This document shows, piece by piece, positions 4,007-6,516 of a stretch of DNA of 64,000 nt. Location of the stretch: positions 124,001-188,000 of the forward strand of contig NZ_JACJPO010000066.1 of the NCBI RefSeq assembly GCF_014696105.1. The letters are read 5' to 3'. The position numbers were made by a program, and so were the translations under genes. The notes under the pieces are model-generated. The model was not told the DNA's origin and did no database searches. It worked only from the letters and a program-made list of their open reading frames with translations. The stretch comes from Microcoleus sp. FACHB-1515. Its GTDB lineage: Bacteria > Cyanobacteriota > Cyanobacteriia > Elainellales > Elainellaceae. Position 1 is the stretch's first letter. The number at the start of each line of letters is the position of its first letter.

Positions 4007-4393
4007 TTACAGCTTGCGGTTTAAGAAGTTTTTGAGGCGCGTGCCAAGATCAGAAGCAGGTGGCGGTGTGGCAGGAACGGCTTGGGCTTCTAGCTTTTTC
4101 TGGCACTCTTGCGCGATCGCATCGTTGGGATTGAGCTTGAGCGCTTGCCGCAGGTTGACTTTGGCGAGGCTGACGAGTCCTTTGTCGAGGTGGATTTTTG
4201 CCAGCAGCGCGTGGTAGTCGCTCGTGGTGGGATCAGCTTCGATCGCTTCGCGCAGTTCTTGCACTGCCGTATTTGTGTTCCGCATTTTGAGACGATCGAT
4301 CGCCCGCTGGTAATGCCGTTGCGCTCGCTCTTTTGCGGCAGCAGAAACGCTTGTCAGCATGGGAGAAGCCTGACCGGGATCGACATTGGACAT
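4007..4393 (-). CDS. Tetratricopeptide-repeat protein
   Basis: 128-residue soluble protein starting at ATG 4393 (MSNVDPG); an open frame extends 34 codons upstream but those residues are arginine-rich and unlike coding sequence. Residues about 20-95 form two TPR units (AQRHYQRAIDRLKMRN.., ALLAKIHLDKG..LAKVNLRQALKLNPND). A flexible Pro/Ala linker precedes a short basic tail, LGTRLKNFLNRKL, that could be an amphipathic or membrane-touching helix. Small TPR proteins of this shape act as adaptors in cyanobacteria, including in photosystem assembly, but no specific partner can be read from the sequence. It is divergent from the LexA-box gene at 4689. Confidence 0.75.
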   Translation of the reverse strand: MSNVDPGQASPMLTSVSAAAKERAQRHYQRAIDRLKMRNTNTAVQELREAIEADPTTSDYHALLAKIHLDKGLVSLAKVNLRQALKLNPNDAIAQECQKKLEAQAVPATPPPASDLGTRLKNFLNRKL

Positions 4394-4654
4394 GGTAGAC
4401 AACCTGTAGCTAAGAGGACGAAGAAAGCGCAAATGCGGTGCCGCAGCCTCGACACCGCGACTAGATGCGCTACGAACAGGAACTCCAGATCGCAATCAAG
4501 GCGATCTCGAACACTCCACTCAATCTCCAGGGGGCTAGGGCTAGGATCAGTGAAGAGTTGATGAAGCTAAAAAGCGAAGCTTCACAGTTCCATCATATTG
4601 AGCAGAGTACACTCCCGTCATCCGTGTCCATCCAGCAGCTACTTTGGCGCATAC

Positions 4655-4668
4655 AGTACAATTGTTCT
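4655..4668. promoter_or_regulatory. LexA (SOS) box of cyanobacterial type
   Basis: AGTACAATTGTTCT fits the consensus described for cyanobacterial LexA, RGTAC-N3-D-GTWC-B, at every position. It ends 20 bases before the ATG of the small acidic gene at 4689, which is where a repressor would cover the promoter. It is the only full match I found in the window's intergenic DNA. Confidence 0.55.
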
Positions 4669-4688
4669 AGTTGTTCTAATCTCAGGTG

Positions 4689-4982
4689 ATGACTGACTAC
4701 ACGCCTTATCACGGTGCCAGCGAGTCGCTTCGCGATGAAGAGCGCATTTCGCTAAATGCTGAGGCATCCGAAGGCGAAAACTGGCTCGATGAGCAATCTG
4801 AAGAAGTTGATTTTTATGAAGCGCTCGATGAGGACTGGCTGATCGAAGATTTGAGCGATCGCGCCCAAGCTTACGAACAGTCGGACGCAGAAGTGCGATC
4901 GACCGATGTACCGTTCCCTGAACTGATCGAAGCCGCCATTCAGGTGATGCAGGCTGCCCAAGATGCCGGAATCGAGTTCTAG
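4689..4982 (+). CDS. Small, strongly acidic protein of unknown function
   Basis: 97-residue protein starting at ATG 4689; a GTG sits directly before it in frame. The composition is striking: long runs of Asp and Glu (NWLDEQSEEVDFYEALDED at about residues 32-50), almost no Lys, and a C-terminal hydrophobic helix FPELIEAAIQVMQAAQDAG. No Cys, no signal peptide, no membrane segment. I do not recognise the family. The LexA box just upstream suggests DNA-damage induction; together with the acidity this could fit a DNA-mimic or an inhibitor of a DNA-binding enzyme, but that is speculation. It is short, so the chance that it is not a gene is real; the conserved-looking C-terminal helix, HIP1-rich codon use and the operator argue for it. 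Confidence 0.6.
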   Translation: MTDYTPYHGASESLRDEERISLNAEASEGENWLDEQSEEVDFYEALDEDWLIEDLSDRAQAYEQSDAEVRSTDVPFPELIEAAIQVMQAAQDAGIEF

Positions 4983-5049
4983 GGTTTTGAGCTTGTTAGA
5001 CTGAAGGAAGGTAAAATTCTTCACAATCTCTTCACGCAAGACGCTTCTC

Positions 5050-6516
5050 ATGCCGCCAACCCTTTTGTCACAAGAACTGCCGACGCTGCAATACAGCCAG
5101 ACTCGCGATCGCTTCGATCAATCGTGGGAAGCACCGCTCGCGATTTTGCTGGGCTTGGGACGTGCAGCCGGAGCCGATCTGGTCGAATTTTTCCTAGAGC
5201 GCGTCAACTACATTAGCTGCTTGGCCGAAGACGACGCGATTACCAGCATTTCGCCCAGCCTCTCAACCGGAGCGGGAGTGCGCGTCTTCGTGGGCAAAGC
5301 CGACTGCTATGTCAGCACCAACGACCTTTCGTTCAACGGCCTCAAAGCCGCCCTGGAAAAAGCTTTGGCGATCATGGGTTTGCATTTGCCCGCCGCCAAT
5401 TCCTTTGTGCCGCCGATCAACCTGGAACTCTTGCGCGACTATGCCACCGTCCGCAATAAAGAAGTTTGGTTGCCGAACTGCACCTCGATGCGCGACATGA
5501 GCGACGTGCTGCTGAGCGCCACTGCGGAGCTGGGGCGCGTTGCCAATCACGTCCAGTCGCGCCGCGCTTCGTATTTTCGCGACTGGCAAGAAGTTTTGGT
5601 AGCGGCGAGTGACGGCACGTTTGCTCGCGATATCCGCCTCAATCAGTCGGTCGGCTATAACCTGCTGTGTGCTGATGGTGCAAATCGATCGAGCATCGGA
5701 GAACGCGCCGGAAACACCAGCGATCCCGCCTTTTTGACCACCTGGAACTACGAAAAATCCGCTCAGGGCATTGCCGAATCCGCAGGCAAAATGCTCACCG
5801 CCGATTATGTCGAGTCGGGAACCTATCCGATCGTGATGGCGAACCACTTTGGCGGCGTCATCTTCCACGAAGCCTGCGGGCATCTGCTGGAAACGACACA
5901 GATCGAGCGCAAAACCACGCCGTTCATGAATATGAAAGGCCAGAAGATCGCGCACGAAAATCTGACCGCCTGGGATGAAGGATTGAGCGATCGCGAGTTC
6001 GGCACGATCGACATGGATGACGAAGGAATGCCTGCTCAGCGCACGTTGCTGATTGAAAAAGGCATTTTGAAAAACTTCATTGCCGATCGCGCTGGCTCGA
6101 TGCGAACCGGACATCCGCGCACAGGCAGCGGACGCAGACAGGGCTACACCTTCGCCGCTGCCAGCCGGATGCGAAACACCTACATTGCTCCGGGCGAATA
6201 CAGCACGCAGCAGATTTTCGATTCGATCGACAAAGGCATCTACTGCAAAAAAATGGGCGGCGGCAGCGTTGGCGCAACCGGAGAATTCAACTTCGGGGTC
6301 GAAGAAGCCTACCTGATCGAAAATGGCAAGCTCACCAAACCGCTCAAAGGCGCAATCTTGATCGGGGAAGCCAAAGACGTGATGAACAAAATCTCGATGT
6401 CTTCCCAAGATCTGGGATTGGCAGCGGGCTTCTGCGGCTCGGTCAGCGGCAGCATCTACGTGACGGTTGGTCAGCCGCACATCAAGGTCGATTCGATTAC
6501 GGTCGGCGGACGCTAA
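5050..6516 (+). CDS. tldD: TldD/PmbA family metalloprotease
   Basis: 488-residue cytosolic zinc peptidase subunit. In E. coli TldD and TldE (PmbA) form a heterodimer that degrades unfolded peptides and matures microcin B17 and CcdA; TldD carries the catalytic site. Here the HExxxH motif is intact (H273, E274, H278 in HEACGHLLE), which marks this copy as the catalytic TldD rather than TldE. The N-terminal strand-rich region ([24 protein letters not shown]) and the C-terminal [24 protein letters not shown] block are classic for the family. The TldE partner is not within the window. Start at ATG 5050, 67 bases after the acidic gene. Full length for the family. Confidence 0.92.

Follow-up and report, generated by a model that had tools for sequence, protein, structure and literature searches.

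A candidate LexA-regulated gene encoding a small, very acidic orphan protein in Microcoleus sp. FACHB-1515

Near one end of the window, by which we mean the whole 64,000-nucleotide stretch of DNA that was analysed, a short gene for a very acidic protein lies between a divergent gene for a TPR protein and a gene for a TldD-type metallopeptidase, and a sequence resembling the LexA boxes of cyanobacteria precedes its start codon. The features of this locus are the following.

4010 to 4393, minus strand: divergent upstream gene for a TPR protein (Pfam TPR)
4655 to 4668, plus strand: putative LexA box, AGTACAATTGTTCT, almost a perfect palindrome, with 6 of 7 base pairs matching
4657 to 4662, plus strand: TACAAT, a possible -10 element inside the box, inferred by reading the sequence
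4689 to 4982, plus strand: gene for the 97-aa, very acidic orphan protein, recognised by its ORF, its homologues and its dN/dS
4997 to 5002, plus strand: TAGACT, the probable -10 of tldD's own promoter, inferred from the GYTAVACT motif upstream of tldD
5050 to 6516, plus strand: downstream gene for a tldD-type metallopeptidase (Pfam PmbA_TldD domains)

The acidic open reading frame begins with an ATG at 4689, and its stop codon ends at 4982. The 97-residue product contains 28 aspartates and glutamates as against 4 lysines and arginines, has a pI of 4.05 and carries a net charge of -24.4 at pH 7. This amounts to -0.25 charges per residue, compared with -0.17 for the most acidic of the 65 non-overlapping ORFs of at least 90 amino acids in the window, a set to which the acidic ORF itself does not belong, having probably been displaced by an overlapping antisense ORF that is slightly longer. 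The acidic residues occur in both halves of the protein (16 in residues 1-48 and 12 in residues 49-97). Pfam and NCBIfam each gave no family at E<=1, so that the description in the initial annotation, a 97-residue, very acidic protein of no recognised family, is borne out. A sequence search of solved structures returned a single match with a best E of 0.67, which we take to be due to chance. Among the three members of the protein family (the window protein and the two homologues described below), none matched the anti-phage defence collection of PADLOC, and one, which is not the window protein, matched PHROGs at E 0.12 only. No membrane-spanning stretch is evident by eye, and a search of an open literature library gave nothing on the protein.

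In the comparison with the relative of the same genus, the acidic frame has a dN/dS of 0.26, the lowest of all six frames, which indicates that the protein is selected; by this measure, the reading frame is under purifying selection. Selection on it is weaker than on tldD, its dN/dS being about five times the value of 0.05 for that gene. The antisense ORF at 4752-5051 and the remaining frames were considered as coding candidates and rejected (dN/dS of 0.34, 0.95 and 1.77 for antisense frames, and of 1.41 and 1.44 for the other sense frames). An AlphaFold2 model built from a two-row alignment is of low confidence (pLDDT 63.5, pTM 0.24); it places helices at residues 48-69 and 77-92 and neither helix nor strand before residue 48.

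The box at 4655-4668 ends 20 nt ahead of the ATG, and a scan of the sequence confirmed both the motif and this spacing as the initial annotation had given them. It is the sole match to AGTACNNNNGTTCT in the 64-kb window, even when one mismatch is allowed; since 1.1 such matches with one mismatch are expected by chance, the bare pattern is not significant there. More information comes from a scoring matrix built from 48 published cyanobacterial LexA sites, as listed in a table of PMC3091678. On this matrix the box scores 18.2 bits, which would place it in about the upper third of the published sites, and the second-best place in the window reaches 10.5 bits. Sites scoring this high are expected about 0.24 times per genome, a rough figure that derives from one match in 24 Mb of simulated sequence. 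None of three consensus patterns is enriched in the 5.8-Mb home genome when compared with its reversed control: AGTACNNNNGTTCT occurs 4 times versus 7, RGTACNNNDGTWCB 36 times versus 59, and RGTACNNNNGTTCY 13 times versus 22. With respect to the promoter, a convincing -35 element to go with TACAAT was not found, and a promoter scan of positions 4400-5100 did not report TACAAT; its one promoter-like site lies on the minus strand, with none over the box.

Homologues of the acidic protein are few. A protein search of 98 genomes, among them the home genome, found them in three, and a profile search over a class-wide sample of 388 genomes gave eight matches at E<=0.1 in total, of which three are convincing and come from the same three genomes. 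The five further matches (E 0.009-0.08) were not accepted, being partial, located in longer frames and in one case interrupted by an internal stop. Besides the home genome (G000), the carriers are a relative of the same genus (G001), whose protein is 78% identical, and a member of the same family (G002) with 39-42% identity. A search of genome contigs returned one match, which is the same-genus relative, and no homologues were found among viral contigs, plasmids or phages, the phage search having been made with the distant homologue as its sole query. Within the order, the profile search detected the gene in 3 of 36 genomes; in the other 33, some of which are incomplete assemblies, it was not found, and it thus does not belong to the core SOS genes.

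All three proteins share a pI of 4.05, with charges of -24, -22 and -15, the last being that of the distant homologue. They have 28 invariant positions, 12 in residues 1-48 and 16 in residues 49-97, among them W32, W50, Y62, F76, P75 and P77, and identity to the distant homologue is spread evenly over the two halves (14 of 36 and 18 of 47 aligned positions).

The identical 14-mer precedes each of the three homologues, in two genera, at 20, 22 and 24 nt ahead of the ATG, so that the conservation of the box upstream of homologous genes, which the initial annotation had named as a check, is found in every case. In G002, the acidic gene sits at a different locus, and the upstream DNA otherwise aligns poorly. 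By simple arithmetic, the chance that the box would recur within 60 bp before the distant homologue is about 1e-4 for the ten defined bases and about 5e-7 for all 14 bases on two strands. As far as sequence can tell, then, the pattern alone proves little, and it is the conservation in relatives that makes the site credible.

The exact 14-mer AGTACAATTGTTCT also occurs elsewhere in the class. The 388 sampled genomes contain 53 such sites, distributed over 47 genomes, compared with 2 for the reversed control. Sixteen of them precede genes of SOS type (ssb in seven cases, lexA-family genes in seven, uvrA and photolyase in one each), four precede a sigma-factor gene, four a YCII gene and three the acidic gene. 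Ten sites lie inside long ORFs by our reading (16 were flagged mechanically), and the remaining 16 stand before mixed or unnamed genes or have no clear gene following. For representatives, the gene name comes from a profile match (SSB, photolyase, LexA, sigma-70, asparaginase II, YCII, UvrA), and the others were assigned by eye. The base next to the box differs between contexts: in 35 promoter sites selected by hand, with 8 of less clear context left out, a T precedes the box in 30 and an A follows it in 23, versus 1 of 10 and 0 of 10 in the intragenic sites. The window site has an A after the box and a C before it, the sole C among the 35.

Several of these sites deserve a comment of their own. 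Four intragenic matches (L145, L146, L158, L177) share one stretch of asparaginase II-like genes and were set aside as a coding coincidence; this stretch (identified by Pfam for L145 and by LQYNCSGKHAG in L146) can mislead motif scans. In four genera of the family, the exact box stands shortly ahead of a sigma-factor gene (L123, L125, L127 and L128, in G010, G011, G028 and G004). The one such gene tested has the Pfam domain Sigma70_r1_2, and we take all four to belong to group 2; DNA damage might in this way be coupled to sigma-factor switching. The YCII-domain genes behind an exact box (L075/L129 in G002, L156 and L171 in G086, L180 in G104) have a divergent ECF-type sigma gene opposite in three of four loci, with DUF6596 in the one tested, and L156 lies near a contig edge. 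Furthermore, in G026 and G031 (L119, L120), the exact box is found 27 nt ahead of a 73-aa acidic ORF with a pI of 4.8-4.9, for which the one representative searched against Pfam gave no match; this is possibly another small SOS protein.

The home genome has three LexA-family genes above the family cut-off, two in tandem on contig C39 and a divergent one on contig C17. All three have kept the Ala-Gly dyad, the GDSM serine and the TTLK lysine; the dyad, serine and lysine are the residues of the LexA autocleavage site, with established roles. In all ten family genomes examined, a GGTAC-type box is present in the promoter of the canonical lexA. The home version, GGTACAAGCGTTCT, scores just 7.0 on the matrix of published sites, which shows that this matrix does not fully describe the sites of the home genome. 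A box of 13.7 bits (AGTACGTCTGTATG) lies about 184 nt ahead of the in-frame start of recA, and six of the seven genomes read have a recA box of at least 12 bits. Furthermore, uvrA has a box of 12.3 bits (AGTACAGACGTTCT), and two ssb genes have boxes of 16.5 and 18.6 bits, the ssb copy on C39 falling under the family cut-off (39.5 versus 53.95 bits). Given these boxes before lexA, recA, uvrA and two ssb genes, together with the intact LexA cleavage site, LexA has the appearance of a classical SOS repressor here. The remark in the initial annotation that LexA may not control the classical SOS genes therefore finds no support in this organism, and no link to redox control was found.

Some further observations were made on LexA genes and LexA-type sites in the home genome. 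In the tandem pair (G000:C39:66852-68214; L039, L045), which is also present in G001, the 250 bp read upstream show a box before the first gene only. The divergent copy (L082:2130-2747, L089; relatives L081, L124, L172, L174, L179) has an intact cleavage site, and its operator and its protein both differ from those of its relatives, as if the two had changed together. A LexA-type box, AGTACATTTGTTC(C/T), is shared by the home genome (L083, G000:C54:26523-26536) and G001 (L064, G001:C356:2478-2491), where it separates two divergently oriented genes, one for NdhM and one for a DUF4230 protein; these were identified by Pfam for the home copy and by eye for G001. The box could connect LexA with the NDH-1 complex. 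Another LexA-type match, AGTACATTTGTTCT, is a strong one and is situated between the 3' ends of convergent ORFs (L005/L088, G000:C3:121937-121950), and no convincing gene start was found downstream of AGTACATTTGTTCT at this locus.

The reading that we favour, and consider likely, is that the acidic gene is a lineage-restricted member of the predicted LexA (SOS) regulon, that it would be induced by DNA damage and that its product would modulate a partner. LexA control, which the initial annotation had proposed, is the part of this prediction that is well supported by comparison, given the box before all three homologues and the exact 14-mer before ssb, lexA, uvrA and photolyase genes elsewhere. 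Mechanistically, LexA bound at 4655-4668 would keep the gene off. The TACAAT inside the box is a fair -10, so that the bound repressor would block the promoter; transcription would then start near 4669, leaving a leader of about 20 nt. Upon DNA damage, activated RecA would stimulate the self-cleavage of LexA, and the 97-aa protein would be made together with RecA, UvrA and Ssb. It may be pictured as a soluble protein of small size that would bind and modulate a partner in the damage response, be it in repair, replication or division; its acidic N-terminal half would be unstructured, and its C-terminal part would form two helices. This last step is guesswork based on the composition and a weak model; we favour it because lineage-specific SOS effectors that modulate a partner are common and because the invariant W, Y, F and P residues would fit a binding surface.

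Several other explanations of the box have to be weighed against this. If it were a chance match and the acidic gene not regulated by LexA, the lack of enrichment of all three patterns in the home genome and the narrow spread of the gene would be easily understood, but the calculated rarity of a recurrence before the distant homologue and the 53 exact sites versus 2 control sites across the class speak against it and make it highly improbable. The box might also control a unit of the acidic gene and tldD, its purpose being the damage control of the TldD peptidase, for which the acidic protein might then be a substrate. The two genes are separated by 67 nt with no terminator-like site found between them, and their order is kept in G001. 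However, the spacer in G001 measures 142 nt, and in G002 the acidic gene has its box at another place, with tldD on a different contig. Moreover, among 13 tldD loci that were read upstream, two carry the acidic gene, and all 11 that lack it next to tldD are without a box (ten of these were read over 1500 bp and one, L141, over 560 bp). Ten of the 11 show, by eye, a -10-like GYTAVACT before tldD, which is also seen in the window at 4995-5002. Hence we regard the two-gene unit as very unlikely, and on these comparisons tldD is probably not part of the LexA unit. The TPR gene on the other side is not conserved beside the acidic gene, a different gene being found there in the same-genus relative. 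A more serious competitor, though still an unlikely one, is that the box before the acidic gene is served mainly by the divergent LexA paralogue (G000 C17:9629-10246) and belongs to a circuit separate from that of canonical LexA. Among 36 genomes in the order, G000, G002 and G027 yielded this paralogue, at 390-418 bits as against 191 for the next best, so that two of the three carriers of the acidic gene have it; the exact 14-mer lies 28 nt ahead of its ATG in G002 and G027 and 28-29 nt before look-alikes in G200, G133 and G081. In the home genome, however, the promoter of the paralogue, as read by eye, has AGTTCATTTGTTCT instead, located on the opposite strand, and the protein has diverged to 49% identity with the G002 copy. 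G001 has the acidic gene and no detected paralogue, its assembly being 82% complete. Furthermore, the exact 14-mer precedes sigma-factor genes in G004, G010, G011 and G028, genomes of the order in which the paralogue was not detected; the paralogue search covered the order, to which the genomes with the box ahead of ssb do not belong. Because of these four sigma-factor sites in genomes without the C17 type, canonical LexA is the simpler choice.

As to what the protein does, the initial annotation put forward the idea of a DNA mimic; as such, it would occupy a DNA-binding protein after damage. The common pI of all three homologues and the presence of acidic residues in both halves of the window protein agree with this, but the charge drops to -15 in the distant homologue, neither a solved structure nor a Pfam family could be linked to the protein by sequence, and the invariant tryptophans, tyrosine, phenylalanine and prolines suit a protein-binding surface as well. 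Nor does the even identity to the distant homologue let any part stand out as the working one. The AlphaFold2 model is too weak to judge whether charges are spaced as in DNA, and a conserved C-terminal core was dropped as an argument against mimicry, identity, invariant positions and acidic residues all being spread over both halves. On balance, we find mimicry rather improbable. More far-reaching would be the proposal that a few Leptolyngbya-like cyanobacteria, and they alone, possess an SOS effector of a new type that is made only once LexA, or a second LexA-like repressor for which the operator differs, has been cleaved, and whose acidic surface and helical part block or redirect a DNA-bound partner. 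We consider this quite unlikely; if true, the effector would be a damage checkpoint unlike SulA, YneA or DinI.

The modulator under LexA control that we favour can be compared with systems already described. In Nostoc sp. PCC 7120, the LexA regulon comprises lexA, recA, uvrA, ssb and others (PMC3091678). The window box fits the form AGTAC-N4-GTTCT and is one base off the predicted Nostoc uvrA site, AGTACTATTGTTCT; the acidic protein is none of the members that the consulted sections of that paper name. The proximity of the box to the ATG and the boxes of the home genome before the same SOS genes are further points of likeness. In contrast to the known members, the product is an orphan, convincingly found in 3 of 388 genomes. 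Exact copies of the box before ssb, lexA, uvrA, photolyase and two kinds of sigma factor speak for a LexA-SOS circuit of the classical kind in these families, and the acidic gene would be a damage-inducible candidate in a group for which LexA has often been credited with other roles.

Lineage-specific SOS effectors are known from other bacteria: SulA, YneA and SosA are division inhibitors, and DinI and PsiB modulate RecA. The acidic protein resembles them in being small, narrowly distributed and encoded behind a LexA box, and in falling outside the families of repair enzymes. It differs from SulA, DinI and PsiB, which are represented in Pfam, in having no Pfam match at E<=1, and from YneA, which has a single membrane segment, in showing no such segment by eye. 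Acidic DNA mimics include Ocr, ArdA and the cyanobacterial nuclease inhibitor NuiA, all of them small and strongly negative as is the protein described here; unlike these, it matches no family, and a folded, DNA-like array of charges is beyond the reach of the weak model. For this orphan protein, the logic of expression can be guessed at ahead of the function, and its gene is, in comparison with these known systems, a new candidate for the SOS regulon with an orphan product rather than a new kind of system.
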